A stretch of DNA of 64,000 bases, from assembly GCF_000312385.1 (NCBI RefSeq), contig NZ_HE997627.1, positions 1,009,282 through 1,073,281 of the forward strand. The letters are read 5' to 3'. The notes under the pieces were generated by a model. It saw nothing but the letters and a program-made list of their open reading frames with translations. It had not been told where the DNA came from and searched no databases. Below are positions 30,922 through 49,031 of the stretch, one piece after another (position 1 is the stretch's first letter; the number at the start of each line of letters is the position of its first letter). Position numbers and translations under genes: made by a program. This stretch comes from Tsukamurella sp. 1534 (GTDB lineage: Bacteria; Actinomycetota; Actinomycetes; Mycobacteriales; Mycobacteriaceae).

Positions 30922-30976
30922 ACCCTCTCCGCGCCAGGCGCATCCGCCGATTCAACCGTCGAACCCGCGCATGCAA

Positions 30977-31005: not shown

Positions 31006-31141
31006 CGCACTCGGTGTCTTTCGTCGAGATTCCCGTCCGCCTCATGCCCGAAGCTACCCATATGGACGGACCCGTGCGTGCGATTCCCATGAGGTTCGCG
31101 TTCACGGTCGAACAGGCGAAATGCAGATGACAGAAGGGGGT

Positions 31142-31522: not shown

Positions 31523-31526
31523 CTGC

Positions 31527-31916
31527 TCACCACAGCGCGACCGCTCCCACCACGGTCACCCCGACCACCATGAGGATCACCGTGAGCACGAGGTACGCAC
31601 GGGCGCCGCCGAGCGGCCGCTGCTCCCGCAGCGACCGCTCGTTGACGTACCAGCGCCGGAAGGATTCGGCCGCACACGCCAGGCCCAAGGCGGCCGCGCC
31701 CACGGCGTAGACCCGCCCCAGTCCCCCGCTGTCGAGAGCCGGACCGATCGTGTGCAGTGCAGCTCCGAGCGCGATGAGGGCCAGCGCCGTGCGGATCCAC
31801 GCCAAGAAGGTCCGTTCATTGGCCAGACTGAATCTCGGGTCGGGCTCGCATCCCTCGCCGTATAGCCGGCGCGGCCACCGTCGATCCTCCTGCGCGCCAC
31901 CGGCGGAACGATTCAC
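31527..31916 (-). CDS. DUF202 (YidH-like) membrane protein, upstream partner
   Basis: A 129-residue protein with the DUF202 signature FSLANERTFLAWIRTALALIALG followed by two more hydrophobic helices (three in total). I start it at the GTG that overlaps the sulfatase stop (GTGA); the longer frame upstream lies inside the sulfatase. The translational coupling places both DUF202 genes in the MFS-sulfatase operon. The two small proteins may form a heteromeric membrane complex. Confidence 0.8.
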   Translation of the reverse strand: MNRSAGGAQEDRRWPRRLYGEGCEPDPRFSLANERTFLAWIRTALALIALGAALHTIGPALDSGGLGRVYAVGAAALGLACAAESFRRWYVNERSLREQRPLGGARAYLVLTVILMVVGVTVVGAVALW

Positions 31917-34243
31917 TGAATCGTGACCTCGATGTCGTGCAGCACCTTTGCAGGAGTCTCGGGTACGCCCGCCTGCTCGTCGATATCGATATCGACCCAT
32001 TCGATCGACCCGGTGAATTCGCCTCGGAGCGTGTCGTATCCGGACGGTACGACGCCGCTACCGATGTCGCAGCCGACGTCGGTGCTTCCGGAGTACAGGA
32101 ACGGGACCGTCCGCGCGATCCGGCCGGAGCCGGCCACAGCCCCGTCGACCGTGAGTGTGACACCCCCTCCCCGGCCGAAGCCGGGCTGCTCGTCCACCTC
32201 GAAGGCGAAGGCGACCTCGTGCGCGCCCGGCTCGACCGCGTCGACGCTCACGACGTCCGTGGACTCCATCGCGAGGTAGTTGTGCGTGTAGACCAGGCGC
32301 CCTGCCTCCATCCGCAGGCACCATCCCGAGAACCTGCTGCCCTGGGCGAAAATCACGCCCGCGGCGCCGTCGGGAACCGTGATCGACGCCGTGACGCGGT
32401 GCGACTTGTTCTTCACGTTCGGCACCGCCTCGCGCGCGAGACGGACCATCCCGGGGTAGAGCCGCATCGAGGTGCGGCCGCGCAGCAGGTCGGGTCGCCC
32501 GGCCACATCGGAATTGAACCGTTCCGAGCGGCGGTCGTCCAGCGGGAGAACGTGATTGCGCTCCGCCTCGTCGAGGAAGAGCTGCTGTAGCTCGGCGAGC
32601 TTCTCGGGCATCTCCGCCGCCAGATTCCGCGCCTGACTCCAGTCGTCCGGCGCGTACAGCTCCCAGTCGTCGTCCTCGAGGGGCGGGACGTTGGTCAGGT
32701 CCCACGGAGTCCCGTGCTTGGTGCAGGCCGACCAGCCGTCGTGGTACACACCGCGATTGCCGAACATCTCGAAATACTGGGTCACCACCCGCTCGGGGGC
32801 GTCCGGCGTGCGCAACGCCTCCGCGAAGCTGTGCCCGTCGATCCGCTGCTGCGGTACGCCGTTGACGGATTCGGGGACGGGCAGACCTGCGAGCTCGAGG
32901 ATCGTCGGATAGACGTCGATGACATGCTGCCAGTGGTCCCGGACGGTGCCGGCTCCGTCGATCCCCTCCGGCCAGTGCGCGACCATGCCCACGCGGGTTC
33001 CGCCCCAGTGCGAGGCGACCTGCTTGGTCCACTGGTACGGGGCATCCATCGCGTGTGCCCACGCGGCCGGGTAGTGGTTGTACGCGGTCGGCCCGCCGAT
33101 CTCGTCCAGCCTCGCGAGGATGTTCTCCGTGGTGTCGTGAACGCCGTTGAGAGCGGCGATCTCGTTGAAGTTCCCGGCCAGCCCACCCTCCCCGGACGCG
33201 CCGTTGTCGCCGAGGATGTACAGGATGACCGTGTTGTCGAGTTCGCCGGCCGTCTCGATCGCATCGACCAGACGCCCCACCTGGTGGTCGGTGTGCTCCG
33301 CGAAGCCCGCGAAGGCCTCCATCAGCCGACACGCGACCGTCCGCTCGTCATCGGACAGGCTGTCCCAGGCCGGGAGTTCGTCGTGGCGGCGGGTCAGCTC
33401 ACAGTCCTGCGGAACCACGCCGAGCGCCTTCTGCCGCTCGAGCATCCGCTCGCGCTCGACGTCCCAACCGTGGTCGAAGTGCCCGCGGTACTTCTCGATC
33501 CACTCCTGCGGCACGTGGTGCGGAGCGTGGGTCGCTCCGAAGGAGAGGTAGACGAAGAAGGGCTTGTCCGGCGCCAGCACCCGCTGGTTCCGGGTCCACT
33601 CGATCGCGCGATCGGTGATGTCCACACTGAAGTGGTAGTCGGGGTCGTCCGGCACGTCGACCGGAGTGGTGCCCTCGTGCAGCGACGGGGACCACTGGTC
33701 GGTCTCGCCGCCCATGAGGCCGTAGAACTTCTCGAAGCCCTCGCCCGTGGGCCACCGGTCGAACGGGCCCGCGGCGCTGACCTCCCACTCCGGGGTCTGG
33801 TGCATCTTGCCGAAGGCCGCCGTGTTGTAGCCGTTCATCCGCAGCACCTCGGCGAGGGTCGCAGCGGTGTTGGGCCGCACCGAGGTGTACCCCGGAACAG
33901 AGGTCGCGAGGTTCGTGATCGTCCCCATGTTCACGGCGTGGTGATTACGTCCGGTCAGCAGCGCTGCGCGCGTGGGCGAACAGAGCGCGGTGGTGTGGAA
34001 CCGGCTGAACTTGACGCCGGTGTCCCCGAGGCGTTCGGCGGTCGGCATCGAGCACGAGCCGCCGTACGCCGACGATGTTCCGAACCCCATGTCGTCGAGG
34101 AGGACGACGACCACATTCGGGGCGCCCTCCGGCGGACGCAACGGCGTCAACTTCTCGTACGAGGTGCCGCGTGCGTCGAGACGGTCGCTGGTGGGCGGTT
34201 CCACGTCGCGAATCGGTAGGTGGGAACGGTCGATTGGAGTCAC
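31913..34243 (-). CDS. Type I (formylglycine) sulfatase, arylsulfatase-like
   Basis: A 776-residue sulfatase. The active-site motif CSPTRAALLTGR has the cysteine (residue 88) that must be oxidised to formylglycine. Metal ligands DDMGFG are at 50-55, and a second metal site is probably ILGDNGASGEGG. The size matches the 770-790 residue AtsD-like subfamily, with a C-terminal beta-sandwich from about 600. There is no signal peptide or Tat motif, so it acts in the cytoplasm on imported sulfate esters. It starts at GTG behind GAGGTGA. It lies 64 bp behind the MFS gene and overlaps the DUF202 gene by 4 bp. The substrate is unknown. Confidence 0.93.
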   Translation of the reverse strand: MTPIDRSHLPIRDVEPPTSDRLDARGTSYEKLTPLRPPEGAPNVVVVLLDDMGFGTSSAYGGSCSMPTAERLGDTGVKFSRFHTTALCSPTRAALLTGRNHHAVNMGTITNLATSVPGYTSVRPNTAATLAEVLRMNGYNTAAFGKMHQTPEWEVSAAGPFDRWPTGEGFEKFYGLMGGETDQWSPSLHEGTTPVDVPDDPDYHFSVDITDRAIEWTRNQRVLAPDKPFFVYLSFGATHAPHHVPQEWIEKYRGHFDHGWDVERERMLERQKALGVVPQDCELTRRHDELPAWDSLSDDERTVACRLMEAFAGFAEHTDHQVGRLVDAIETAGELDNTVILYILGDNGASGEGGLAGNFNEIAALNGVHDTTENILARLDEIGGPTAYNHYPAAWAHAMDAPYQWTKQVASHWGGTRVGMVAHWPEGIDGAGTVRDHWQHVIDVYPTILELAGLPVPESVNGVPQQRIDGHSFAEALRTPDAPERVVTQYFEMFGNRGVYHDGWSACTKHGTPWDLTNVPPLEDDDWELYAPDDWSQARNLAAEMPEKLAELQQLFLDEAERNHVLPLDDRRSERFNSDVAGRPDLLRGRTSMRLYPGMVRLAREAVPNVKNKSHRVTASITVPDGAAGVIFAQGSRFSGWCLRMEAGRLVYTHNYLAMESTDVVSVDAVEPGAHEVAFAFEVDEQPGFGRGGGVTLTVDGAVAGSGRIARTVPFLYSGSTDVGCDIGSGVVPSGYDTLRGEFTGSIEWVDIDIDEQAGVPETPAKVLHDIEVTIQ

Positions 34244-34307
34244 AGGTCACCTCGAGGGATCGGTCGTAGGGATGGGAGTCATGGCGCGGTCCGTCGCGGA
34301 CCGCTGG

Positions 34308-35606
34308 TCAGGAGCGGAGGCCGAAGCGGCGCGCGTCGGCGTCGGGATGCATCGCGAATGCACCCACGATTCGGCAGACCAGCAGAATCGCCCCGGACAC
34401 GAGGAAGACCTCGTCGAACGCGGCCGCTGGTCCGCCTGCGGCGTCGATGATCCGGCCGGTCACGGTCGGCGCGATCACGCCGGTCATGGTCACGATCGCC
34501 GTGGCCGTGGCCATCACGGCGCCGCGTTGCTTGACCGGACTGATCCTGCCGGCCATGAGGAAGGACAGGGGGTAGAAGGCACTGGGGATGCCGAAGGCGA
34601 CGGCGACCAGGACGAGCAGCACCGTGCCGGAGGTGTGCCCGACGAACACCGCGCACACGCCGGCGAGGACGACCATCGCTCCGGCGAGCACCCCGAGCGA
34701 CCAACGTGCGCTCACACCCGCACGGACGAGCCGCTCGGAGACCAGGGGGATGACCAGGATCGCGACCGCGCTCACGATGTGCGGGCTGGACACCAACACC
34801 GCCGTGGTCTGCGCGGAGTACCCGCGACCGCGCTCGAGCAAGGTCGGCAGCCAGGCCGTCGACACGGCGAGGGCCCAGTACGCGCCGGCACCCGCAACGA
34901 TCGTGCCCAGCCAGGTCCGGGAGGTGAACAACCTCGCGTACCCGACGGTGCGCTCCTCGGACGTGCTCGTCGCCCTCGCCTCGGCGGTCGACGAGTACTC
35001 GCGGTACGGACCCTCCTTGCCGATGACGTACCATGCTGCAGCCCACACGATTCCGACGATCGCGAGCGCCGCGAATCCCGACCGCCAGCCGTGATTGGCG
35101 ATGAAGTAGGCGAGAGTCGGCGCCGTGACCGCGAGTCCGAGCGCTCCGCCCATCGTCGTCAAGGCGGTGGGAATCGCCCGGGCGTTCTCGGGGAACCACT
35201 TCTGCACGGCGTGGGCCGCCATCGGCGCGGTCGGCCCCTCGGCACCGCCGAGCGCGATGCGGCTGGCGTAGAGCATGGGGACGGACGCGGCGAGGAGTAC
35301 CGGCAGTGTCGCGAGCGACCACAGGACCGCGATGACGCCGAGGATCGTGGTCGTCGAGACGCGGTTCGAGACGAATCCGACGATCACCGCGGCAAGGCTG
35401 AACAACAGGTAGAAGCTGGACGAGATGCCGCCGAACTGCGTCGCACTGAGACCGAGCTCGGCCATGATCGGCTTCGCCGCGAGCCCGAGGACGGCCTTGT
35501 CGCCGAAGTTGATCATCATCAGCACGACGATCATGAGCGTGACCGCCCACGCACGCCGAGGCGAAGCCGACACCCGTTCTGCACCTACGGGTTCGATAGC
35601 GACCAT
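34308..35606 (-). CDS. MFS transporter, anion:cation symporter-like
   Basis: A 432-residue membrane protein with 12 predicted helices. The N-terminal segment FGDKAVLGLAAKPIMAELG and the loop between helices 2 and 3 resemble the ACS subfamily, which carries organic anions. It is the first gene of a minus-strand operon with the sulfatase and two DUF202 genes, so it probably imports a sulfated organic anion. Its upstream region holds a 33-bp element repeated at the LysR gene 9.5 kb away. The substrate is inferred from context. Confidence 0.85.
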   Translation of the reverse strand: MVAIEPVGAERVSASPRRAWAVTLMIVVLMMINFGDKAVLGLAAKPIMAELGLSATQFGGISSSFYLLFSLAAVIVGFVSNRVSTTTILGVIAVLWSLATLPVLLAASVPMLYASRIALGGAEGPTAPMAAHAVQKWFPENARAIPTALTTMGGALGLAVTAPTLAYFIANHGWRSGFAALAIVGIVWAAAWYVIGKEGPYREYSSTAEARATSTSEERTVGYARLFTSRTWLGTIVAGAGAYWALAVSTAWLPTLLERGRGYSAQTTAVLVSSPHIVSAVAILVIPLVSERLVRAGVSARWSLGVLAGAMVVLAGVCAVFVGHTSGTVLLVLVAVAFGIPSAFYPLSFLMAGRISPVKQRGAVMATATAIVTMTGVIAPTVTGRIIDAAGGPAAAFDEVFLVSGAILLVCRIVGAFAMHPDADARRFGLRS

Positions 35607-35673
35607 TATTCTGCTTCTCCGTTACTGCCGGCGACTCTCTTCCGTTCAGTGTGAGCCGCATCTCACCACATGG

Positions 35674-35706
35674 GAAGTGCATAGTCTTCATGCCAGTCAT
35701 GCATGC
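35674..35706. promoter_or_regulatory. Candidate LysR operator in the MFS/FGE intergenic region
   Basis: GGAAGTGCATAG-N12-TCATGCATG lies 68-100 bp before the MFS start and 113 bp before the FGE start. It matches the element at 45165-45197 in all 12 positions of the left arm and 7 of 9 in the right, with identical spacing. The gene encoding the likely binder is the LysR regulator at 44275-45147. Confidence 0.7.
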
Positions 35707-35819
35707 CGCGAATAGCCGAGGCGGACCGATCACGGAGAACGACCTCTAGGATGACACCGCGACCGAGCCGAACCCATCGGACGACAACATGATTCGCACC
35801 CCGCACCAGGAGGACGCGC

Positions 35820-36794
35820 ATGAGCGAGCCACGAATCACCGCCCCCAACACCTCGTGCTGCGCGCCGGCCGGCCCGGCGGCGGTGTCCCGAGCAGGGAGC
35901 ACCCCTCGACCGGACCGGCGCAACACTCGCGGGCAGATCCTGGTGACCGGCGGACGCTTCCGCATGGGCGACCCGTTCGACGAGGGCCATCCCGCGGACG
36001 GCGAGACTCCCGTCCACCACGTGGAACTCAGCCCATTCCACCTCGATGCCACCTCCGTGACCAACGCGCAGTTCGCCACGTTCGTCAAGGAGACCGGTCA
36101 CGTGACCAGCGCGGAGGACTTGGGACTGTCCGCCGTCTTCCACCTCGCCGCCGAACCGGCTGTGCGTGCCGCCGCCGGGAGGGTCGAGGAGGCCCCGTGG
36201 TGGCTGGTGGTCGACGGAGCCGACTGGCGTCACCCCGAGGGTCCCGGATCGACCGTGACGGATCGGCAGAACCACCCCGTCGTGCACGTCTCGTGGCACG
36301 ACGCCCTGGCCTACTGCGCATGGGCCGGCAAACGCCTGCCCACCGAGGCCGAGTGGGAGTACGCAGCGCGGGGCGGGCTGGTCGGCGCGCGGTATCCGTG
36401 GGGGAACGAATTGCTGCCGCGCGGACGGTGGCGGTGCAACATCTGGCAGGGCGAGTTCCCCACGCGCAACACCCTCGACGACGGGCATCTCACCACAGCA
36501 CCCGTGAAGTCGTACGCCCCGAACGGCTACGGATTCTGGCAGATGGCGGGGAACGTCTGGGAGTGGTGCGCGGACCGCTTCGGCGCGGACTACTACGCCC
36601 ACTCCCCGGTCGCCGATCCTTCCGGGCCCAGCGAACCCTCCGAGGGCGAGCGCCGAGTCATGCGTGGTGGCTCATACCTCTGCCACGACTCCTACTGCAA
36701 CAGATACCGGGTCGCCGCACGGTCCGGCAACACCGCGGACTCCGCGTCGGCGAACATCGGCTTCCGGTGCGCGAACGACGCCCGAGAGTCGTGA
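35820..36794 (+). CDS. Formylglycine-generating enzyme (sulfatase-activating)
   Basis: A 324-residue FGE-sulfatase domain protein. It converts the CxPxR cysteine of sulfatases to formylglycine using O2 and copper. The active-site cysteines Cys288 and Cys293 are in RGGSYLCHDSYCNRYRVAAR, matching Cys272/Cys277 of the Streptomyces coelicolor enzyme. FGE landmarks include FRMGDPFDEGHPADGE, KRLPTEAEWEYAARGG and MAGNVWEWCAD. The N-terminal SCCAPAG patch is common in actinobacterial FGEs. The ATG has AGGAGGA in front. Both sulfatases of this island (residue 88 and 89 cysteines) are presumed clients. It diverges from the MFS operon. Confidence 0.95.
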   Translation: MSEPRITAPNTSCCAPAGPAAVSRAGSTPRPDRRNTRGQILVTGGRFRMGDPFDEGHPADGETPVHHVELSPFHLDATSVTNAQFATFVKETGHVTSAEDLGLSAVFHLAAEPAVRAAAGRVEEAPWWLVVDGADWRHPEGPGSTVTDRQNHPVVHVSWHDALAYCAWAGKRLPTEAEWEYAARGGLVGARYPWGNELLPRGRWRCNIWQGEFPTRNTLDDGHLTTAPVKSYAPNGYGFWQMAGNVWEWCADRFGADYYAHSPVADPSGPSEPSEGERRVMRGGSYLCHDSYCNRYRVAARSGNTADSASANIGFRCANDARES

Positions 36795-36922
36795 TCAACC
36801 GAGGGACTTCAGGATTCGCAGAACCACTCTCGGGCGTGATCAACAACAAGCGTTTCAGTACGGCGCATCCTACTTTCTGACCACCTGTCAATTCTCCTTG
36901 GCGACCTGTCGAGCCGGATATA

Positions 36923-36944
36923 GCGTGTGAAACCAATCACACGC
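36923..36944. promoter_or_regulatory. Inverted repeat upstream of the ABC importer operon
   Basis: GCGTGTG-AAACCAAT-CACACGC is a perfect 7-bp inverted repeat with an 8-bp spacer, 33 bp before the permease start. A weak TTGGCG-N15-TATAGC pair just upstream would place transcription start inside it. It may be the operator of the tandem TetR-like regulator in this operon, or the FGE terminator. Confidence 0.45.
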
Positions 36945-36976
36945 CCCCCAAGTATCTTTCGCAGGGAGAGTTCACC

Positions 36977-37834
36977 ATGACCGACGATGGAATGGTCGCC
37001 ACGGCCGCCACCGAGGACCGGACGGCCACAGCGCGAGCACCGAAAGGCAAGAAGAGCCGCGCGGAAAGCCGACTCACCCTCAAGGTCCGCATCATCCAGG
37101 TCATGATCCTCATCGCGTGGCTCGCCCTCTGGCAACTGACGGCCGACCTGAAACTGCTCGACCCGGTGCTGAACAGGTCGCCCCTACAGGCCTGGGACTA
37201 CCTGGTCACGGCGTCGGAATCCGGTGAGCTGTGGTCGAATACGGTAGCCACGATGACCGCGGTCATCATCTCGTGGGTCCTCGCCAGTGTCGTCGGTACG
37301 ATCTGCGGCCTCGGACTCGGCCTTCTGCCCACTCTCGAACGGATCGTCGCTCCGTTCCTCGACGCGCTGAACGCCATGCCGCGCATCGCCCTCGCACCGC
37401 TGTTCATCGTCGCCTTCGGCATCGGCATGACGGCCAAGGTCGCGCTCGGTGTGACCGTCGTCTTCTTCATCGTCCTCTCCGGCGCCCGCGCCGGCGTGCG
37501 CACCGTCGATCAGGAGTGGTTGCGCATGTCCGCGGTGATGGGCGCGAGCAAGATCCAGGTCTTCATCAAGATCCTGTTCCCGGTCGCAACGCCCGCGATC
37601 TTCGCAGCGCTGCGCCTGGGCCTGATCTTCTCCCTGCTCGCGGTCATCGGCTCCGAGCTCATCTCGGCGAAAGACGGACTCGGTCAGCTCATCTCGAAGT
37701 ACTCCTCGCTGTTTCAGATGGAAGCCGTCTACGCGATGCTGATCCTCCTCGCCGTCGTCGCCGTGCTGCTCAACCAGATCATGCTCGCCGCGGAGCGTTG
37801 GCTCCTCCGCTGGCAGGCGCCGTCGGACGTCTAG
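36977..37834 (+). CDS. ABC transporter permease, SsuC/TauC/NrtB type
   Basis: A 285-residue inner-membrane permease with about six helices. The EAA loop that contacts the ATPase reads EWLRMSAVMGASKIQVFIKI (about 178-197). It follows the 130-bp FGE/permease gap and is first of a permease-ATPase-binding-protein set, which is a complete importer. Similar systems take up aliphatic sulfonates, taurine, nitrate or thiamine precursors. The sulfatase gene in the same operon makes a sulfate ester or sulfonate the most likely cargo. Confidence 0.9.
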   Translation: MTDDGMVATAATEDRTATARAPKGKKSRAESRLTLKVRIIQVMILIAWLALWQLTADLKLLDPVLNRSPLQAWDYLVTASESGELWSNTVATMTAVIISWVLASVVGTICGLGLGLLPTLERIVAPFLDALNAMPRIALAPLFIVAFGIGMTAKVALGVTVVFFIVLSGARAGVRTVDQEWLRMSAVMGASKIQVFIKILFPVATPAIFAALRLGLIFSLLAVIGSELISAKDGLGQLISKYSSLFQMEAVYAMLILLAVVAVLLNQIMLAAERWLLRWQAPSDV

Positions 37835-37872
37835 TCCGACCCCTCACCACTGCCACGACCAGGAGACCCGAC

Positions 37873-38655
37873 ATGACCTCATCCACGCCGGTCGAGAACC
37901 GCACCGACGCCGATATCGAACTCAAGGACCTCGTCGTCGAGTTCACCAGCCCCGACGGGGACACGAAGCGAGTACTGCACGACATCTCCCTCTCCGTTCC
38001 GACCGGCCAGTTCATCGCTCTCGTGGGCAAGAGCGGTTGCGGTAAGACGACGCTGCTCAACACGATCGCAGCGCTCGTCCAGCCCACATCGGGTTCCCTC
38101 ACCGTGCACGGCCAGCAGCCACGGGAGGCGCGTGCACACCTCGGCTTCATGCCCGCCCGGGATGCCCTGCTGCCCTGGCGATCCGCGCTCGGCAACGTCG
38201 AGTACGGCCTCGAACTGCGCGGCGTCGGGAAGAAGGAGCGACGCGAGACCGCGGCGCGATGGCTGAACGCGGTGCACCTCAAGGGCTCCGAATCCCTCTG
38301 GCCGTGGCAACTCTCCCAGGGCATGCGGCAGCGCGTCGCGCTGGCACGGACCTGGGCCCTCGATCCCGATGTGCTCCTCATGGATGAGCCCTTCGCCGCA
38401 CTCGACGTGACCACGCGCGTGGCGGTACAAGAGGAGTTCCTGCGATTGTGGCAGAGCGAGCGCCGCAAGACCGTCGTGTTCGTGACCCACGATCTCGGCG
38501 AGGCGATCGCGCTCGCAGACCGCATCGTCCTGCTCAACGGGGGCGAGGTGCAGTACGACGTCGAGGTCGGGATCGAACGCCCGCGGAATCTCCAGGACAT
38601 CGCCGCCGACCCCCGCTACCAGGAGATCCATCACCGGCTTCGCTCGGCGATCTGA
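37873..38655 (+). CDS. ABC transporter ATP-binding protein, SsuB/TauB type
   Basis: A 260-residue ATPase. Walker A is GKSGCGKTT at 52-60, the Q-loop is near 95, the signature is LSQGMRQRVALAR (LSQGM in place of the common LSGGM/Q) and Walker B is VLLMDEPFAALD, with the H-loop in VFVTHDLGEA. The start is an ATG behind AGGAGA, 38 bp after the permease. It energises uptake for the neighbouring permease and lipoprotein. Confidence 0.92.
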   Translation: MTSSTPVENRTDADIELKDLVVEFTSPDGDTKRVLHDISLSVPTGQFIALVGKSGCGKTTLLNTIAALVQPTSGSLTVHGQQPREARAHLGFMPARDALLPWRSALGNVEYGLELRGVGKKERRETAARWLNAVHLKGSESLWPWQLSQGMRQRVALARTWALDPDVLLMDEPFAALDVTTRVAVQEEFLRLWQSERRKTVVFVTHDLGEAIALADRIVLLNGGEVQYDVEVGIERPRNLQDIAADPRYQEIHHRLRSAI

Positions 38656-38714
38656 ACCGACTCACTCACCGCCCGAGTCGAATCCCGACCGGACATCACT
38701 GCAAGGAGAACCCC

Positions 38715-39689
38715 ATGAATCTCAGCAAGCGGATCGTCACGTGCGCCGCGGCCGGCGTGCTCGCGGCGTCGGGCCTCACCGCCTGCGGCGGCTCGGACAC
38801 CGGTGCCGACGACGGCACCTTCTCCCTGGGCACGTACCCGAACAGCATCCTTTCGCTCCCCACCGCCGTCGCCGAGGGCGAGAAGCTCTTCGAGGCCGAG
38901 GGACTCAAGGTCACCCGCGTCGACGCCAAGACCGGCCCGGAGATCGTCGCCGCCCTCATCGGCGGTACCACCCAGATCGCCGGAGGGTCGACCGGCACCG
39001 TCATCCCCGCCCTCGGGCAGGGGCAGGACCTCCGAGTCCTCCCCGTCTTCCAGGGCGAGACCAAGGTCATCATGGTCACCGGGAAGTCCGGCGTGACCTC
39101 GCTGGCCGGACTGGCGGGCAAACGTCTCGCGATTCCGGTCCGCGGCGGCGACGCCGAGACCTATGCGAACGAGGTGATCCGCGAGGGCGGCGCCGATCCC
39201 AGCACGATCACGTACGTCGCCGCCGGCGGGCCACCGGCGATCGCCGCCGCCGTGATGAACGGCGAGGTCGACGGGGCGATCGGCACGGTCTCCAGCGCCG
39301 AACTCATGCGGTCCAAGGGGGCGGACGTCAAGGTGATCGCCGCTCCGCAGGACAACACCGCGGGAGAACGCGGCAGGGCGGGTCTCTCCGGGTTCAACAC
39401 GACCACAGCGGCGTACTTCGAGAGCCATCCGAAGACGGTGAACTCCTTGTGCAAGGCCATGATCAAGGCCGCTACGTTCATCGCGGACCCCGCGAACAAG
39501 GAGAAGGTCGTCGGATACATCGCGACATGGGTCGGGCTGCCGAAGAAGAACGCCGAGGTCGTCTGGGAGTCCGAGCACAAGTCGTGGTTCACCACGCTCG
39601 ACCAGGCGCGGTGGGACGCCAACGTGAAGTTCGCGGGAGGCAAGCCGGTGTCCTTCGACAAGGTGGTCAACACCTGCGGCCAGAACTGA
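38715..39689 (+). CDS. Substrate-binding lipoprotein of the ABC importer (SsuA/TauA/NMT1 type)
   Basis: A 324-residue extracytoplasmic binding protein. The signal peptide ends in the lipobox LTAC with the acylated Cys24. The mature part has the NMT1/SsuA-like fold: SLGTYPNSILSLPTAVAEGE, then GGTTQIAGGSTGTVIPALGQGQ. It presents substrate to the permease. It stands 59 bp after the ATPase gene and 25 bp before the second sulfatase. The specificity cannot be read from sequence; an organosulfate or sulfonate is likely by context. Confidence 0.9.
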   Translation: MNLSKRIVTCAAAGVLAASGLTACGGSDTGADDGTFSLGTYPNSILSLPTAVAEGEKLFEAEGLKVTRVDAKTGPEIVAALIGGTTQIAGGSTGTVIPALGQGQDLRVLPVFQGETKVIMVTGKSGVTSLAGLAGKRLAIPVRGGDAETYANEVIREGGADPSTITYVAAGGPPAIAAAVMNGEVDGAIGTVSSAELMRSKGADVKVIAAPQDNTAGERGRAGLSGFNTTTAAYFESHPKTVNSLCKAMIKAATFIADPANKEKVVGYIATWVGLPKKNAEVVWESEHKSWFTTLDQARWDANVKFAGGKPVSFDKVVNTCGQN

Positions 39690-39714
39690 TCCCGCCCGAC
39701 ACGAAGGAGGCCAC

Positions 39715-42033
39715 GTGCCGAACGACCTACGGACGTACTCGCCGACGGAGGGCTTCACCGGGGTCCTCCGGGCCACCGCACCCGATTCGACGCCGGCCTG
39801 GCCGGCCACTCCCAGTTCCCCTCCCGGCGCGCCGAACGCCCTCACCATCGTCCTCGACGACATGGGCTTCGCCCAGTTGGGATGCTTCGGCGGCCTGGGC
39901 GGGCGGATCTCGACCCCGAACATCGACCGCTTGGCCTCGAACGGCCTGCGGTTCCGGGACTTCCACGTGACACCCCTGTGCTCGCCCACGCGCGCGGCCC
40001 TGCTCACCGGGCGCAACGCGCACTCCGTGGGCGTCGGCACGATCATGGAGTACGCGACCGGCTACCCCGGGTACGACACCGTGATCCCCGACGATGCGGC
40101 GATGACCCCCGCGGTCCTCCGGGAGGCCGGCTACTCGACGATGGCACTCGGCAAGTGGCACCTGACCCCGGACTGGGAGAACGGCCCGTGGGGCCCGTTC
40201 GACCGCTGGCCGCTGGCCAAGGGGTTCGACCGGTTCTACGGCTTCATGCCGGGCGAGACCTCCCAGTGGGCGCCGGACCTGTGGCAGGACAATCACCGGA
40301 TCGACGGATCCGATCGCCCCGACGACTACCACCTCTCGGTCGATCTGGTCGACCGGGCGATCGCCTGGACGGGCGAACTCGCGGCGGTCACTCCCGACCG
40401 GCCCTTCTACCTGTATTTGGCGTTCGGCGCGATGCACGCCCCGCACCACGCCCCCGAGGAATGGATCGAGCGCTACCACGGGGTCTTCGACGCGGGATGG
40501 GACGTGATCCGGGAGGAGACCCTCGCTCGGCAACGTGAACTCGGCGTCGTGCCGGACAACGCCGACGTGCCGCCCCACAATCCCGATGTCGCGGCCTGGG
40601 CGGACCTTCCCGACGACCACCGGCGCGTACTGTGCCGCCAGATGGAGGTCTTCGCGGGGTTCCTCTCGCACACGGACCACCAGATCGGCCGGCTGCTGGA
40701 CCATCTCGATGATTCCGGCCGCCTCGACGACACCGTCATCCTGTTCCTCAGCGACAACGGCGCGAGTGCCGAGGGCGGCGAACACGGGCTGTTCCACGAG
40801 CTCAGCTACTTCAACCGCAGTCCCGAGACCTTCGAGCAGATGTCGGAACGCCTGGACGAGTGGGGCACTCCCACGAGTCATCCCCATTACGCCTCCGGGT
40901 GGGCGGAGGCCGGGAACACTCCGACCCGGTGGTATAAGACCACGTGCCACGAGGGTGGCACCCGGGTTCCGCTGATCGCGCACTGGCCCGCCGGCATCCC
41001 CGATCCCGGCGCCGTCCGCTCCGAGTACACCCACGTGATCGATCTCGCTCCGACGATCCTCGACCTGATCGGCATCGAACCTCCCGAGACCATCCGGCGG
41101 ACCGCGCAGCGGCCGCTCGACGGTGCGACGATTCGGGACGTGCTCACCGATCCGAACGGGCGCGCATCACGCACCGCCCAGCACTTCGAGTGCTTCGGAC
41201 ACCGCGCGATGTGGAAGGACGGGTGGAAGGCCGTCGCGATCCATCCCTCGACGATGCACGCCCACCGGGTGCGCATGCCGCTCGATCTCGCGCGGGACGG
41301 CGACTACGCCGGCGATGTGTGGGAGCTCTACGACCTCGCTGCCGACTTCTCCGAGGTGCACGACAGGAGCGCCGATCACCCGGAGTTGCTCGCGGAGCTG
41401 ATCGACCTGTGGTGGGCGGAGGCAGGCCGGTACCAGGTGCTGCCGCTCGACGACCGGGGCGGAGTGCGCGCGCAGGACCCGCGCCCGTCCGCTCGGCGCG
41501 ATCGCTCGGAGTTCCACTACAGTGCTCCGATCATGCTCAGCACCAGCACCTCTCCCGATCTGCTCGATCGGGCGTTCGCCGTGGACGTGGACCTCGAGTA
41601 CACCGACGGCGCGGACGGCGTGCTGGTGAGTTACGGGACGGCTGCCGGCGGATTCAGCCTGTACGTGCTCGACGGACGGATCGCCGTGGACTTCGCGTAC
41701 CTCGGGCGGGAGCACTTCCACGCCACGGCGGAGGCCCCGATGGCGGGCGGGGCGCACCACGTCACCCTGCGCATGAGTCGCACGGGCCCCGCCACGGGAT
41801 CGGTCACCGTACTGGACGGCTCCACGGTGGTCGCCCGACTGCCCGTGGTGCGGACCAATCCGATCATCTGGTCGATCGGGTCCGGGCTGCAGGTCGGTGG
41901 CGACAGCGTCTCTCCCGTCTCCGCCGACTACCGCTCCCCGTTCCGATTCGCCGGGGGGCTGCGGTCCGTCACCATCGTCCTCGAGCCGGCGGATCCTGCG
42001 CCGACGGTCGACACGGCGCGCGTCCGGCAATGA
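39715..42033 (+). CDS. Type I (formylglycine) sulfatase, second copy
   Basis: A 772-residue sulfatase related to the one at 31913-34243 but clearly different in sequence. The active-site motif is CSPTRAALLTGR with Cys89, and the metal ligands are DDMGF at 48-52. A FLSDNGASAEGGEHG segment contributes further ligands, and a C-terminal beta-sandwich ends the protein. It starts with GTG behind GAAGGAGG. No export signal is seen, so it is cytoplasmic. It is in one operon with the ABC importer and the tandem TetR-like regulator (ATGA overlap). The importer probably brings in its substrate. Confidence 0.93.
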   Translation: MPNDLRTYSPTEGFTGVLRATAPDSTPAWPATPSSPPGAPNALTIVLDDMGFAQLGCFGGLGGRISTPNIDRLASNGLRFRDFHVTPLCSPTRAALLTGRNAHSVGVGTIMEYATGYPGYDTVIPDDAAMTPAVLREAGYSTMALGKWHLTPDWENGPWGPFDRWPLAKGFDRFYGFMPGETSQWAPDLWQDNHRIDGSDRPDDYHLSVDLVDRAIAWTGELAAVTPDRPFYLYLAFGAMHAPHHAPEEWIERYHGVFDAGWDVIREETLARQRELGVVPDNADVPPHNPDVAAWADLPDDHRRVLCRQMEVFAGFLSHTDHQIGRLLDHLDDSGRLDDTVILFLSDNGASAEGGEHGLFHELSYFNRSPETFEQMSERLDEWGTPTSHPHYASGWAEAGNTPTRWYKTTCHEGGTRVPLIAHWPAGIPDPGAVRSEYTHVIDLAPTILDLIGIEPPETIRRTAQRPLDGATIRDVLTDPNGRASRTAQHFECFGHRAMWKDGWKAVAIHPSTMHAHRVRMPLDLARDGDYAGDVWELYDLAADFSEVHDRSADHPELLAELIDLWWAEAGRYQVLPLDDRGGVRAQDPRPSARRDRSEFHYSAPIMLSTSTSPDLLDRAFAVDVDLEYTDGADGVLVSYGTAAGGFSLYVLDGRIAVDFAYLGREHFHATAEAPMAGGAHHVTLRMSRTGPATGSVTVLDGSTVVARLPVVRTNPIIWSIGSGLQVGGDSVSPVSADYRSPFRFAGGLRSVTIVLEPADPAPTVDTARVRQ

Positions 42034-42935
42034 CGGCCCCCGGACCACGTCGTCCGCCCGCTCCCGGGCGGGCGGACGACGGTGCGCCGGGGCGCGGCGA
42101 GGTACTGACCGTCCGCGGAGCGCGGAGCCGGGCGGCGCTCGTCCGGGCGGCACGCGAGATCTTCGAGCGGGACGGCCTGGTCGACGTGAGCCCGGCGAGT
42201 ATCGCCCTCGCCGCCGGGGTGTCGCGTGCCACGTTCTACACGTACTTCGCCGACCTCGAGGAGATCCTCCACGCGGTCGTGCGGGACTCGCTCGAGCCGG
42301 CGGGGGTGACCCTGCATCCGCCGCCGGATCCCGTTCGCGCGCGCCTCATCGACGAGGCGCGCTCGGTCTTCCTGCGGACGGGATTCGCCGACGCCCGTGC
42401 GGAGGACATCGCGAGGCGGGCGGGACTGCCGCTGCGGACCTTTCACGACCACTTCGCGGATACGTCCGAGGCCTTCACCGCGGTCCTCGACGCGACCCGC
42501 GAGGAGATGCTGCACCCGCGCAACGACCACCGCCCGCCCGGGGTCCGCGAGCAGATCGCCTCCCGTCACCGCGCCTACCTCGACTCGTACGCGCGGAACG
42601 CCCGGCTGATGGTGCTCCTCGAACAGGCGGCACTCGTGTATCCGGCGTTCCGCGAACTACGGTTGCGGCGGGCCGAGGCGTTCGTGGAGCGGAACGCCCA
42701 GTGGATCGCCCGACTGCAAGGCGACGGGGTCGCGGACCCCGACCTCGATCCGACCTTGACCTCCCGGGCCCTCAGCGCGATGGTCAGCCGACTCGCGCAC
42801 TTCCACTTCGGTCTGCGCTCCGCGACGACCGGAGTGGACGACCTGGTGAAGATCTCGACGGAGGTATGGGTGCGGACCCTCCGGATCTCCCCCGACGAAC
42901 CGAACAACCGACCCGAGAAGAAGGACGACTCATGA
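42030..42935 (+). CDS. Regulator with two TetR-like DNA-binding domains in tandem
   Basis: A 301-residue protein with two successive TetR-type helix-turn-helix regions. The first is at about 33-80 (AALVRAAREIFERDGL, then GVSRATFYTYFADLEEI). The second is at about 103-150 (RLIDEARSVFLRTGFADA, then GLPLRTFHDHFADTSEAF). A helical ligand-binding domain follows. Ordinary TetR proteins have one such domain and about 200 residues. The ATG overlaps the sulfatase stop (ATGA) and its own stop overlaps the DUF1254 gene, so it is made with the operon it probably controls. Confidence 0.8.
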   Translation: MTAPGPRRPPAPGRADDGAPGRGEVLTVRGARSRAALVRAAREIFERDGLVDVSPASIALAAGVSRATFYTYFADLEEILHAVVRDSLEPAGVTLHPPPDPVRARLIDEARSVFLRTGFADARAEDIARRAGLPLRTFHDHFADTSEAFTAVLDATREEMLHPRNDHRPPGVREQIASRHRAYLDSYARNARLMVLLEQAALVYPAFRELRLRRAEAFVERNAQWIARLQGDGVADPDLDPTLTSRALSAMVSRLAHFHFGLRSATTGVDDLVKISTEVWVRTLRISPDEPNNRPEKKDDS

Positions 42936-44239
42936 TCGACGACCGTGAACTGTACGAGCGTGCCGTTGAGGCCTACATCTACGCCTACCCCGTGGTCCTG
43001 ATGGATGCCACGCGTGACGCGGCCCGGCGTCGCGCGGAACGGGAGGGCTATCCGTTCCACAACGCCTTCCATCACCGAGCCACCTTTCCGGACGACACGT
43101 TCACCGAGGTGGTGCGTGCCAACGTGGACACGCTGTACTCCCAGATCTGGTTCGACCTCTCCGACGGCCCCTTGTTGATCCGCGTCCCCGACGCCGGCGA
43201 TCGCTACTACGTCCTCCCGTTCATGGACATGTGGACGGACGTCTTCGCCTCCGTGGGACCACGGACGACCGGTGCGGATTCCGGTGACTTCCTGCTGGTG
43301 GGACCGGGGTGGACGGGCTCTCCCCCGGAGGGCGCAACCGTGATCGCCAGCCCCACGACGTGGGGCTGGATCATCGGACGCACCCAGACGAACGGGGCCG
43401 CCGACTATCCCGCAGTGCACGCCTTCCAGCACGGCTTCTCCGCGGAGCAGGCGAATGTCGGCACGACACCGCCGGTACCGGCGGTGGCCGCCGGCCCCTG
43501 GACGGACATGCCGCCGGTGGTCGCCGTCGATGCCATGAATGCGCAGGAGTTCTTCGACAGGTTCTCCGCACTACTCGCCGTCGCGCAGCCGCATCTCACG
43601 GACCAGGCCCAGCTCGCGAGGCTGGCGCCGCTCGGTCTCGGGTCGGACACGCCCTTCTCCTTCGCGGAGACCGAACCGCGCGTGCGTCACGCGCTGGAGG
43701 AGGCGGTGTCGGAGGCCGTCTCCCGGATTCGCAACGTCGACTCGCGCCACTCGTGGAATCTCAACGGCTGGACCATGCGCCCCGGCACCGGGAACTACGG
43801 GATCGACTACGGCACGCGTGCGACGGTCGCGTTCGCGGGCCTCGGCGCGTTGCCGCCGCAGGAGGCGGTGTACCCGCGCGTGAACGTCGACAGCGAGGGC
43901 CGTGCGCTGTCGGGCGCGCACCGGTACCGCTTGCACTTCGCCGCGGACGCGCTCCCGCCTGCGCGGGCATTCTGGTCCCTGACGATGTACGGCGAGCACC
44001 AGTTCCTCGTGACCAACCCCATCGACAGGTTCGCGATCGGCGATCGCGACGATCTGGCCTTCGGCGACGACGGTTCACTCGAAATCCTCGTCCAGCACGA
44101 TGATCCCGGGAATCGTGACACGACGAACTGGCTTCCAGCTCCGGAGGGTCCGTTCAGCATGAACGTGCGGCTGTACCTCCCCGCACCCGAAGCGGTGGCC
44201 GGTACGTGGATGCCGCCGTCGATGCAGCGGATCGACTGA
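42932..44239 (+). CDS. DUF1254/DUF1214-domain protein
   Basis: A 435-residue protein of the DUF1254-DUF1214 family, two beta-rich domains. DUF1254 covers YIYAYPVVLMDATRDAARRR to TFPDDTFTEVVRANVDTLYS. DUF1214 covers MRPGTGNYGIDYGTRATVAFAG to FWSLTMYGEHQFL. No signal peptide is present, although many relatives are exported. The biochemical function is not established. It starts in the stop of the TetR-like gene (ATGA) and closes the importer-sulfatase operon. Co-occurrence with sulfatases suggests a role in sulfate-ester processing, but that is inference. Confidence 0.85.
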   Translation: MIDDRELYERAVEAYIYAYPVVLMDATRDAARRRAEREGYPFHNAFHHRATFPDDTFTEVVRANVDTLYSQIWFDLSDGPLLIRVPDAGDRYYVLPFMDMWTDVFASVGPRTTGADSGDFLLVGPGWTGSPPEGATVIASPTTWGWIIGRTQTNGAADYPAVHAFQHGFSAEQANVGTTPPVPAVAAGPWTDMPPVVAVDAMNAQEFFDRFSALLAVAQPHLTDQAQLARLAPLGLGSDTPFSFAETEPRVRHALEEAVSEAVSRIRNVDSRHSWNLNGWTMRPGTGNYGIDYGTRATVAFAGLGALPPQEAVYPRVNVDSEGRALSGAHRYRLHFAADALPPARAFWSLTMYGEHQFLVTNPIDRFAIGDRDDLAFGDDGSLEILVQHDDPGNRDTTNWLPAPEGPFSMNVRLYLPAPEAVAGTWMPPSMQRID

Positions 44240-44274
44240 GGCGGTTCCGCCCACGGTCTGCAGTGTGGCGTCGA

Positions 44275-45147
44275 CTATTGGGCCAGGCGGCGAGAGGCGA
44301 TGTCGACGATCTGCCGCCGGAGCCACACACTCGCGGGGTCGTTGGCGAGCCGCCTTGACCACGCGATGTGGTAGTCGAAGTCCGGGATGTCCACCGGGAG
44401 ATCGAAGGTTCTGACGCCGGGTTTGTCGAAGCCGTCCCACCCGACCGACACCAGCTCGGAGCCGGGGATCATGGACGGGACCAGATCACTGTTGTTGACG
44501 GTGACCGCAATGGTCCGCCGCAGTCCGGCGTCCGCCAACTTCTCATCGATGAGAACTTCGACGAGGGCTCTGGGGAACGAGATGTGCGGCATGGCGGCGT
44601 AGTCGGCCGGCGTGATCCCCTCGTCGAGTCCCGGCCTACCGACCGCGGCGATACCGGTCCAACTGACAGAACCGAGTCGTAGCGACGGATGGCCGGGCGC
44701 CACCCGCTGTGCCGGCATCGCGATCGCGTCGAGGGTTCCGTCGCGCCTCGCGTCGGAACGCACCGGGGTGCCCAAGACGTGCAGGACGACCTTGGGAGCC
44801 TGTTCTCGCACGACGACCGCCAATTCGGGAGCGATCATCGAGTTGAGGAAGTCCGGCATCGCCACGGTGAACGTCGTCGTGGCCGTACTCGGATCGAATT
44901 CCGGCGCCGAAAGACTCGTGTTGACCAGCCGCAGGATGTCCTCCACGATCGGCACCAGCCGTTCCGCCTCCGGTGTGAGCTGCAGGGATTGCCCCGAGCG
45001 CACCAGGAGCGGATCCCCGAAGCTCTTGCGCAACCTGGCGAGGGCGTGACTCGTCGCGGCTTGACTGAGTCCGAGCTGGGCGGCCGCCCTGGTGACATTG
45101 CGTTCGCGGAGGAGCTCCCCCAGTACGCGGAGGAGGTTCAGGTCCAT
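44275..45147 (-). CDS. LysR-type transcriptional regulator of the sulfatase island
   Basis: A 290-residue LysR protein: MDLNLLRVLGELLRERNVTR, then AAQLGLSQAATSHALARLRK (winged HTH) and a full effector-binding domain. The upstream in-frame ATG at 45171 would add 8 residues, but the family pattern begins at MDLNLL. The later start also leaves the adjacent 33-bp palindromic element entirely upstream. It is convergent with the DUF1254 gene and divergent from a small hypothetical gene. The same element sits in the MFS/FGE gap, so it probably controls both ends of the island. Confidence 0.85.
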   Translation of the reverse strand: MDLNLLRVLGELLRERNVTRAAAQLGLSQAATSHALARLRKSFGDPLLVRSGQSLQLTPEAERLVPIVEDILRLVNTSLSAPEFDPSTATTTFTVAMPDFLNSMIAPELAVVVREQAPKVVLHVLGTPVRSDARRDGTLDAIAMPAQRVAPGHPSLRLGSVSWTGIAAVGRPGLDEGITPADYAAMPHISFPRALVEVLIDEKLADAGLRRTIAVTVNNSDLVPSMIPGSELVSVGWDGFDKPGVRTFDLPVDIPDFDYHIAWSRRLANDPASVWLRRQIVDIASRRLAQ

Positions 45148-45164
45148 GGTCGCGACATTCACCA

Positions 45165-45197
45165 CATGCATAGACTAGATCGAAACTATGCACTTCC
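45165..45197. promoter_or_regulatory. LysR operator, perfect 7-bp inverted repeat
   Basis: TGCATAG (45167-45173) and CTATGCA (45186-45192) flank a 12-bp spacer. The full element on the minus strand is GGAAGTGCATAG-N12-CTATGCATG. It lies 18 bp upstream of the LysR start, consistent with autoregulation, and 117 bp upstream of the divergent small gene. It is repeated at 35674-35706. Confidence 0.75.
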
Positions 45198-45313
45198 GTG
45201 GAAGTTCCAGGTGAACGACACTGATGATGCCCACCCGAAGCCGCGTCCGATGCGTACCGCGGCCCCGGCGAACGAGCGCCATTGCCCGTGAATCCCATTT
45301 TGATGAGGCCGAC

Positions 45314-45622
45314 GTGATCAACGTGCACACACCCACCGCCCCTCGCAGCGCCGTCCGCGGGCGACCACGCCAACAGGGGATCCGCCCCAGCGACGTCCTC
45401 GACGAACGCTTTCTCGCCCGGACGTCGCCGAGGTGGGACCGGGCGTCCCAACAAGCCGGGTTCCGCGACCTCGTCGACGCCCTCGAGTGGGCGCACGCCG
45501 CCGCGCGATCTACACGGTTCGTCAACCCGATCGGAGTGCTCGCCGAGCGGCTGGGCGTGCCGTACCCGGTACTCGCGTCCGTCAAGGAGGTCCGGGACTA
45601 CTTCGCCAGCGGCGGTCGCTGA
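45314..45622 (+). CDS. Small hypothetical protein
   Basis: A 102-residue hydrophilic protein with no recognised domain, signal or membrane helix. The C-terminal half contains FRDLVDALEWAHAAARSTRF and IGVLAERLGVPYPVLASVKE, mainly helical. I choose the GTG at 45314, with GATGAGG six bases upstream, over an ATG at 45224 that lies closer to the LysR operator. Third-position GC is high, as in real genes here. It is transcribed away from the LysR gene and could be its divergent target. Confidence 0.55.
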   Translation: MINVHTPTAPRSAVRGRPRQQGIRPSDVLDERFLARTSPRWDRASQQAGFRDLVDALEWAHAAARSTRFVNPIGVLAERLGVPYPVLASVKEVRDYFASGGR

Positions 45623-45635
45623 CGGGCGGACTCGC

Positions 45636-48600
45636 TCACCGTGCGAGCCACCCGGCGGCCTCGAAATCGTGCAGGTACTTCTCGATGAGCGCGCGGTCGA
45701 GGTGCGGGATGTCGCCCGGGCCGACGCCCGCGTCCCGCACGGCGGCCCGGAACCGGTCGGCGGTGAGGGCCTGCGTGCCGCCCGCCGGAGCGGGGTGCTC
45801 CAGCGAATGCAGCAGGGGCAGAACGGACCGCCTGCGCGCACCGTCGGGCAGAGCCCGCAGCGCGGCCTCGAACCGGGAGAACCACTCGTCGTAGTCCGCG
45901 ACCCGCTCGATCTCCCGCCGCTCCCCGATCCAGTCGACGAAGCTGTCGAGGCTCACGCCGTCGTCGTTCACGTTGAGCACGTGGAACGTCCGGAAGCCCT
46001 CACGCCCCGCGGAGCCGAGAGTGGCGATGGCCTCCGCGGTGAAGTCGACCGGCAGTCCGTCGTAGTGCGGGCGGCGCCCGGCATCGTCCGGCAGGTAGAA
46101 GGACCGCGGCGCGAGACCGGTCTCGGCCACGCTGAACAGGATCCGAGTGAACTGGTCGGCGTCGTTGAACTGGCCGCGGAACCTGCTGTGCGCCAGGATC
46201 ATGTCCGAGCGGAACACCCGCACGGGCAGCGCCGCGAGGTCGGACGCCTCGCGTAGCAGCACCTCTCCCGCCCACTTGCTCACGGCGTAGCCGTTGGCGT
46301 AGGCGTCCGCCCCGATGCGCCGTTCGGCGCCCTCGACTCGGACGTCGTCGTCCTCCACCAGGAGACGGCCGTCGTCCTGCGGCACCACCGCCACCGTCGA
46401 GACGTAGTCGATCGACTTGCGCTTCGCGGTCACGGCGAGTCGCACGACCTCCGCGGTGGCCGCCACGTTCGGGCCGAACAGCTGGTCGTACGGCAGCACG
46501 TGGTTCACCAGGGCACCGCAGTGCACCACGTGGTCCACGTGGCGGGCCAGCCGGTCCCAGGTGGCCTCGTCCAGTCCCAGCGACGGGCTGCCGAAATCGC
46601 CGGCCACCACGTCGAGGTGGTCCGCGGCGAGCCGCGAGAACTCTTGGGCGAGCGCCGGATCGGCGTCGCCGATGGCCGCCCCCACGCGGCGGCGCGCGTC
46701 CGAGGCGTCCTCACCGCGCACGAGGGCGACCACGGTGCCGCCGTACCGGGAGACGCGCCGCAGCCATTCGAGCAGCAGGAACCGGCCGAGGTACCCCGTG
46801 GCGCCGGTGAGCAGTACGACGTGCGGCTCGCCGGTCGCCGCGGGAAGCGCCGGAGCCGCGGCGAGCAGCTCCGGATCGATGAACTTCTCCAGGGTGAGAT
46901 CCGCGGCGCGGGCGATCAGCGCGCCCTCGCCGTGCACGGACGCGGCGGTGGGGGCGGCGCCGACGCCGGACAACGCGCCGTCGATGTGTGCGGCCAGGCC
47001 GCCCAGCGTGGCGGTGGGGCCCACGATGGTCTGCACCGGGACCGGCACGTCGTACAGGCCCTCGAGGGTGGTGGCGAGCGACAGCGCGGAGAGCGAGTCG
47101 CCGCCGAAGTCGGCGAACCGCGTCTCGGCGCCGAGGCTCTCCGTTCCGACGCCCAACGTGAGCGCGGCCGCGCGGATCACCACGTCGACGGTGGGGCCGT
47201 CGGTGTCGAGCCCGCGCAGGCCGTCGCGGCGCCGCTCCTCCGCCGCGTCGTACAACGCCGCCAACCGGTCGCCGTACTGGGCGGTGAGCGCCGGGCGCAC
47301 GAGTTTCCCGATACCCGAACGCAACCCGTTCTCCTGGGAGAAGGGCTCGTGCTCGATGATCACGTCCCGGGGCACCTCGTACGAGGCGAGCCCGTTCTCC
47401 CGGGCCACCTGCGCCAGCGCGTCGAGCACCCGCGCGCGGGCCTCGATGTCGGTCTCCCCGTCGGGGCCGGGTGCGGGTACGACGACGGCGAGCAGGTAGG
47501 AGCGCTCGCTGGTGCCGTACAGGAACGCCTGGTGCACAGCGGGGCTCGCCGCGTACGCGGCCTCGAGCTGCGCGACCGGAACGAACTCGCCCTGCGCCAG
47601 TTTGATGACGTTGCTTCGCCGGTCGACGTACTCGAGGCGATCCGGTCCGAGCTCCGCCATGACATCGCCGGTGCGGTAGAAGCCGTCGTCGTCGAGCAGC
47701 GGCTGCGGCGCCCGGTAGTAGCCGGGGATCAACTGGGTGGACTTCACCAACAGCTCGCCGCGGGGGTGCGGGAGATCGGTGGTGAGGTAGCCGAGTTCCG
47801 GAACGTCGATCAGCTTGTACTCGGTCACCGGCGGCCGCGCGACCACGCCGTCGACGATCACGCCGCCGGCCTCGGTGGAGCCGTAGCCGATCCGGATGCT
47901 CACTCCCAGCATCCACTCCATAAAGGCTTGGAGGTCGGCGGAGAGGGCGGCGCTGCCGCACATGGCCGCCTCGATGCGGCCGCCGAGCACCTCGTCCCGG
48001 AGGTACACCCGAGCGGACTCCGCGTCGGACTCGGCCTCCAGCGCCAGGAACCGCTGGTGCACGAGCTCGCACACACGGGGCACCAGCGCGACGGCGGTGG
48101 GACGCGCGTCCGCGAGGTCGTCGAACAGGCTCGACATGTCGGCGGCGGCGGCGAAGTAGCCGGTGCCGCCGGACGCCAGTCCCGCGATGAGCCAGTTCCG
48201 TCCGTACATGTGGCTCATCGGCAGGAAGTGCAGCAACGCGCCGGTCGGCAGGTCGTCGTCGACGATGCTGTCCACCTTGAGCCACGCGTCGCGGACGATG
48301 CGCTCGGTGTACATGGCCCCCTTGGGGGTTCCGGTGCTGCCGGAGGTGTAGATCAGGGTGACGAGCGGATCGGTGCCGGGCCCGGGCGCGAACGGCGCGG
48401 GCACGGGGAGCGCCCGCCCGCGCTCGACCTCCTCGTCGAGGTCGGCGACGCCCCTCGACGGTGCCGTGCCGCCGGGCACGGCACTGTCGAACACGACGAT
48501 CCGCGGGTCGGCGCCCGACAGGCCGACCGCCTCCCGCGCGAAGTCGAGCTGGGCGGCGCTGACGGCGAGCAGCACCGGCGCGGTCTCGTCGAGGATCGCG

Positions 48601-49019: not shown

Positions 49020-49031
49020 TACCGATCGGTA
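49020..49031. promoter_or_regulatory. TACCGATCGGTA palindrome between car and the ssuD-like gene
   Basis: A perfect 12-bp palindrome, TACCGATCGGTA, of the kind bound by TetR-family repressors. It is 49 bp upstream of the car start and 101 bp upstream of the SsuD-like start. A TGCATAG half-site like that of the LysR element lies at 49007-49013. The binding protein is unknown; no TetR gene is adjacent. Confidence 0.5.

Follow-up and report, generated by a model that had tools for sequence, protein, structure and literature searches.

The window analysed here is a stretch of 64,000 nucleotides (64 kb) from Tsukamurella sp. 1534 (contig NZ_HE997627.1, positions 1,009,282 to 1,073,281), in which genes for two sulfatases, a formylglycine-generating enzyme (FGE), an ATP-binding cassette (ABC) importer, an MFS transporter and two regulators lie together with two copies of a 33-bp element. 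The original prediction read this set as a self-contained sulfate-ester island, framed by the two elements and placed under a single LysR-type regulator. The features that bear on this reading are, in window coordinates:

26284 to 45642, no strand assigned: insertion of about 19.35 kb between an ssb-like gene and the end of a carboxylic acid reductase gene (blastn)
31913 to 34243, minus strand: sulfatase 1, type I (CSPTR-AALLTGR), 776 aa (PF00884, motif, PDB 4cxk/1hdh)
34308 to 35606, minus strand: MFS transporter (PF07690)
35678 to 35712, plus strand: site A, predicted 35-bp operator with half-sites TGCAT, TTCAT, ATGCA and GCGAA at 0, 9, 21 and 30; rank 2 in the de novo model; overlaps the 33-bp element
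35820 to 36794, plus strand: FGE (PF03781, PDB 6muj/2q17)
36923 to 36944, no strand assigned: second perfect palindrome, 8-bp arms GCGTGTGA-N6-TCACACGC, upstream of the permease gene
36977 to 37834, plus strand: ABC importer permease, TauC/SsuC-like (family matches)
37873 to 38655, plus strand: ABC importer ATPase, TauB/SsuB-like (family matches)
38715 to 39689, plus strand: ABC substrate-binding protein, NMT1/SsuA-like (family matches)
39715 to 42033, plus strand: sulfatase 2, type I (CSPTR-AALLTGR), 772 aa (PF00884, motif, PDB 1hdh)
42030 to 42935, plus strand: TetR-type regulator with two TetR_N stretches
42932 to 44239, plus strand: DUF1254/DUF1214 protein (family match), end of the operon
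44275 to 45147, minus strand: LysR-type regulator, 290 aa (PF00126 and PF03466)
45158 to 45192, minus strand: site B, predicted 35-bp operator with half-sites TGCAT, TCGAT, ATGCA and GTGAA; rank 1 in the de novo model; overlaps the 33-bp element

All the genes named in the original prediction were recovered, including the tandem TetR with its two TetR_N domains, together with a DUF1254/DUF1214 gene that it had not mentioned. Both sulfatases combine a PF00884 domain with the C-x-P-x-R...LTGR motif of type I enzymes. The FGE matched PF03781 and FGEs of the PDB at an E value of about 1e-136, and its stretch SYLCHDSYC, read by eye, contains a C-x4-C pair that we take to be the catalytic cysteines. 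For the importer, SsuABC/TauABC gave the best family matches, yet all three subunits stayed under the NCBIfam cut-offs. The sulfatase 2 and TetR genes overlap by 4 bp, as do the TetR and DUF1254 genes, and the LysR gene lies convergent at their end. The LysR protein carries an N-terminal HTH_1 domain (61.5 bits) and a C-terminal LysR_substrate domain (46 bits), both above the curated cut-offs, and a predicted dyad operator of a kind common to its relatives precedes its own gene. By the NCBIfam cut-offs it is neither a CysB equivalog (26.8 of 436 bits) nor a BsrA equivalog (130.7 of 480 bits).

The 33-bp element is present at two places with the same spacing. The copy overlapping site A occupies 35673-35705 on the plus strand, one base to the left of where it had been placed before, in the gap between the MFS (start 35606) and FGE (start 35820) genes. 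The copy overlapping site B occupies 45165-45197 on the minus strand and lies upstream of the LysR gene, hence outside genes as claimed, if the latter starts at the ATG at 45147 (MDLNLLRV...); the mechanical open reading frame (ORF) start at 45171 would overlap the element by 7 bp. The left arm, GGAAGTGCATAG, is identical in both copies (12/12), and after a spacer of 12 the right arm agrees at 7/9 positions, as had been stated. Pairs of this formal quality are not rare in the GC-rich window, where 84 were observed against a mean of 16 in 30 Markov simulations. Within the two intergenic regions, which are short and AT-richer, the element is unusual, unlike window-wide: the best 33-mer match of 23/33 was not reached in 300 dinucleotide shuffles (maximum 22), nor was the local score of 15 in 150 shuffles (maximum 13). 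When two mismatches at most were allowed, the core GTGCATAG-N13-YATGCAT matched the 4.5-Mb genome at A and B only (B on both strands), and at three mismatches the 17 matches were at background level, the reversed control giving 40 in all at up to three. The exact core pattern occurred in 2/401 family genomes, the window's own and one other (G670), in which it lies near unrelated MerR-like and DnaJ-like genes (read by eye) and was taken as a chance match.

Orthologues of the regulator being lacking, distant homologues were examined for a related site. A class-wide search of 394 genomes gave, besides the window's own, 25 loci in 24 genomes with 31-38% identity; seven near-duplicates were removed by eye (L011, L013, L014, L015, L017, L018, L027), leaving 18 actinobacterial upstream regions. 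A plasmid set was drawn from 340 records, of whose 20 listed matches 18 were used and one near-duplicate (L147) was removed by eye, leaving 17. In the 18 actinobacterial regions the two-arm form TGCATAG-N12-CTATGCA was enriched, with a mean best score of 9.11/14 compared to 7.99 for permuted words (0/299 permutations as good), and of 22 spacers tried 12 was the best and 21 the second; FGE and sulfatase upstreams showed no enrichment of this form. Inspection revealed four half-sites at offsets 0, 9, 21 and 30, two direct and two inverted. This four-site word and spacing exceeded all 119 permuted words, with z 6.8 for the 18 actinobacterial homologues and z 4.3 for the 17 from plasmids, and it was not enriched in the control upstreams of 16 FGE (z -0.5) and 29 sulfatase genes (z -1.4). 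Among 77 geometries tried on the 18 homologues, with 12 permuted words each, the offsets (9, 21) came first.

As the half-site word came originally from the window itself, motif finding was seeded from homologue sequences only, by de novo palindromic expectation-maximisation on 200-bp upstream regions with A and B kept out of training. The 18-sequence set gave the consensus TGCAT.....GCAa.ga.tc.tTGC.....ATGCA. With the resulting model B was the best-scoring site of the window and A the runner-up, at length 26 as well as at length 35. The combined 35-sequence model likewise placed B and A at ranks 1 and 2, as did seeded 35-bp models, whereas training on shuffled upstreams (three runs, length 35, fewer seeds) gave ranks of 35-1206. 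In the 26-base model the scores of A (21.4) and B (24.3) lay above that of every position in 706,837 background bases (best 18.4), this background consisting of other, partly overlapping loci. The position of B fits as well: in 12/35 homologues the best four-site match starts at -48 to -38 from the LysR start, where 2.3 were expected and where B starts at -45; part of these 12 matches are weak (12/20 positions). B and A are thus the top two sites of the window under a motif trained on upstream regions of other LysR genes alone. The element is therefore best read as a predicted operator of this LysR class, and binding of the LysR protein at A and B has good support in silico. The TGCATAG word occurs a third time at 49007, ahead of a luciferase-like gene, but was rejected there as a further site, as it fell outside the top three of the actinobacterial and combined models; it was placed second in the 26-base plasmid-set model. 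Close by, in front of the genes for two luciferase-like monooxygenases next to the island, the palindrome TACCGATCGGTA at 49020-49031 has by eye the look of a TetR-type operator.

The association of the regulator with sulfatase 1 recurs outside the window's genome. Scoring the best candidates of each genome (up to 8 in 301 family genomes and up to 30 in 80), we found the LysR at an E value of 1e-40 or better in 2/381 genomes (2/301 and 0/80; the family set comprised 401), namely the window's own and Rhodococcus jostii NBRC 16295, and a scan of genome contigs with two peptide patterns confirmed only the latter and one match of 29%. In R. jostii (L047, 8521-10365) the C-terminal half of the LysR (44%) abuts, head to head, the C-terminal part of a sulfatase 1 orthologue (71%), so that the only other match at this level among the candidates scored adjoins a sulfatase 1 orthologue. 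This remnant, in which the regulatory region is gone, apparently arose by deletion; as it joins both genes, it extends the linkage of LysR and sulfatase 1 beyond the window's genome. An alkyl sulfatase gene (15339-17285) and a double-TetR_N gene (17485-18654) lie near it.

Site B ends 11 bp from the LysR ATG, and site A lies 89 bp from the MFS start and 125 bp from the FGE start, these two starts being divergent. The gene content, the insertion and the fit of both sites to the operator class follow directly from the computations. On these grounds we consider it likely that the LysR regulator on the 19-kb island binds both sites, controlling itself at B and, at A, the MFS-sulfatase 1 pair and the FGE gene, probably with the importer, sulfatase 2, TetR and DUF1254 genes as well, as a sulfate-ester module. 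Each of the two operators would offer four TGCA-type half-sites within 35 bp, typical of this LysR subgroup. Bound at B, the regulator would repress its own gene; bound at A, about 9.5 kb away, it would activate two divergent transcripts, the left one carrying MFS and sulfatase 1 and the right one FGE, probably together with the ABC importer, sulfatase 2, TetR and DUF1254 genes. We infer activation at A and repression at B because both are usual for LysR regulators, which in passages of PMC4834489 and PMC8407307 are described as usually having a dyad site near their own promoter, repressing themselves and activating their targets. The importer would then bring in organosulfate esters, the FGE would convert the active-site cysteine of the sulfatases to formylglycine, and the matured sulfatases would release sulfate, with a ligand or sulfate starvation as the presumed inducing signal.

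Several observations weigh against this reading. Footprinting of the element in orthologues was not possible, because the LysR was found in only 2/381 family genomes tested, one of them with a truncated remnant. The half-site word of the seeded tests originated in the window, and the lengths 26 and 35 as well as the palindromic symmetry were picked after the motif had been seen. In the 17 plasmid homologues the two-arm form with spacer 12 was only marginal (19/299 permutations as good). In the plasmid-set model B kept rank 1 at both lengths, while A took rank 2 at length 35 and rank 4 at length 26; the register was shifted at either length, as it also was in the combined model at length 26. 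At length 35 the de novo actinobacterial model put A (14.9) only narrowly ahead of the next site in the window (14.0) and below the best background position (17.6), so that only B stayed above background; the seeded 35-bp models also left A under the best background (15.5 versus 17.7; 21.4 versus 22.5). No sigma-70-like promoter was recognised around A or B, where shuffles led us to expect 0.1. Finally, the palindrome before the permease gene and the tandem TetR in the operon speak against a single regulator.

This last point leads to the strongest of the alternatives. The perfect palindrome at 36923-36944 sits in the 182-bp gap between the FGE and permease genes, with a fold z of -3.5, and could possibly be either the operator of another regulator, for which the tandem TetR is a candidate, or an RNA hairpin. 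The LysR would then act through B on its own gene and through A on MFS-sulfatase 1 and FGE, and the importer-sulfatase 2 operon, with a promoter of its own, would be separately under TetR at the palindrome. The 8-bp arms of that palindrome, the presence of two regulator genes and the linkage of sulfatase 1 with LysR in the R. jostii remnant all suit such a division, whereas the fold value allows the hairpin, a promoter for the importer operon is without support, and FGE and importer are co-directional; we regard the arrangement as possible, if rather doubtful. As to the claim of one regulator in the original prediction, the part that holds is the fit of A and B to LysR operators, while sole control by LysR is unproved because the tandem TetR and the second perfect palindrome are present.

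That A and B are instead operators of the operon-encoded tandem TetR, their nearness to LysR being incidental, appears unlikely. The TetR gene is co-directional with its neighbours and overlaps them by 4 bp, and palindromic operators are usual for TetR proteins, but the motif and its spacing recur in front of LysR homologues of other phyla, though not in the control regions, B lies at the position where the homologue sites cluster, and the palindrome at 36923-36944 is an alternative candidate for a TetR operator. A chance match between A and B, or a functionless remnant of a duplication, is highly improbable, since, common as pairs of such formal quality are among the GC-rich words of the window, shuffles of both intergenic regions fall short of the observed match and an independently learned motif picks both sites.

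Turning to the surroundings of the LysR-controlled module that we favour, blastn revealed an empty site in all 8 relatives examined among the 15 other genomes of the genus, with flanks up to ~26283 and from ~45643 contiguous within 5-50 bp. As the flanks of the relatives join at these points, the insertion spans about 19.35 kb; loss from all relatives rather than gain here may also account for it. In 2-kb windows the GC content was 0.655-0.71 inside the insertion versus 0.68-0.77 outside. No integrase was found among the island ORFs scanned, no tRNA in the 64-kb window, and no common words of 9-16 bases between the edges 26241-26420 and 45501-45720. Left of the sulfatase module, the insertion holds genes for an alpha/beta hydrolase, a wax-ester synthase/DGAT, an acyl-CoA synthetase, an XRE-type regulator and two DUF202 proteins. 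Between 26340 and 30921 the first three of these, a 95-aa protein and the XRE-type regulator resemble a storage-lipid module. The notion of a self-contained island is thus borne out insofar as the unit lies in a genomic insertion; the insertion exceeds the segment said to be framed and carries storage-lipid-type genes. Nor do A and B frame the set, because sulfatase 1 and the MFS gene lie outside the A-B interval. A GC-rich inverted repeat at 34286-34304, in the 64-bp gap between these two genes, might attenuate transcription.

The genome has three PF00884 matches, two on the island and one on another contig (C3), and a search of the same genome for PF03781 returned the island FGE as its single match. 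The third sulfatase has ABC genes of its own, though the island FGE is the sole PF03781 match. An FGE match at E 1e-60 was found in 14/16 genus genomes (own included), the others having 44-59% identity; loss or replacement of the FGE native to the host is possible. Sulfatase 1 had no match at E 1e-200 in 15 genus relatives. Its closest intact relative (66%, L087) stands beside a sulfatase 2 relative and ABC genes, and that locus contains no match to the island LysR and no site within three mismatches. Seven other genomes among the 401 have relatives of the substrate-binding protein (36-38%) at E 1e-40, and plasmids gave none at E 1e-20.

If the LysR regulator acts as proposed, one switch on an acquired unit would govern a maturation enzyme and its client sulfatases alike, and the island FGE would be needed for the type I sulfatase activity of the genome, that of the third sulfatase on contig C3 included. 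The learned operator would also offer a direct route to predicting targets of this LysR subgroup where orthologues are missing. More tentative, and a step we lean slightly against, is the wider proposal that a broad LysR subgroup across Actinobacteria and Proteobacteria shares the 35-bp operator of four TGCA half-sites (0, 9, 21, 30), a second copy of which, placed at the distant divergent promoter of the island, would let a mobile LysR co-control the sulfatases and the only FGE found in the genome.

In the parts of the open literature consulted, no account of this gene set was found. SftR of Pseudomonas putida S-313 is reportedly a LysR-type regulator of sulfate ester metabolism (Kahnert et al. 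2002). It resembles the island LysR in its type and in its reported association with sulfate-ester genes, and it is gammaproteobacterial. The asf cluster, in the passage of PMC4267179 that treats it, similarly combines a substrate-binding protein, an ABC transporter and a LysR-type activator for sulfur scavenging under sulfate limitation; it oxygenates aromatic sulfonates, however, and that passage names no FGE or sulfatase. For Rhodococcus qingshengii IGTS8, sections of PMC8557817 describe actinobacterial sulfatase genes with regulators nearby and importers raised alongside, but this strain is described there as being without CysB, Cbl, CmbR and McbR homologues, and a ROK protein lies beside AtsA1. 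Type I sulfatases and FGE also occur in the related mycobacteria, although the section of PMC3141025 concerned describes no common operon under a LysR for them. On the acesulfame plasmid of Shinella a formylglycine sulfatase gene adjoins an amidase cluster that includes LysR and TauE/SafE genes, and so likewise has a LysR regulator as neighbour; unlike on the island, the FGE is on other replicons, the text of PMC11500405 does not use the term 'ABC transporter', and the organism belongs to a different phylum. Known LysR-type operators such as T-N11-A and CTATA-N9-TATAG are, in the relevant passages of PMC5002191, PMC4834489 and PMC8407307, dyad-symmetric sites over the regulator's own and its target promoter, and A and B share this symmetry. 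The island differs in that each predicted site comprises four TGCA half-sites in 35 bp, and in that the LysR gene is not divergent from its putative targets, the second copy of the site lying 9.5 kb away.

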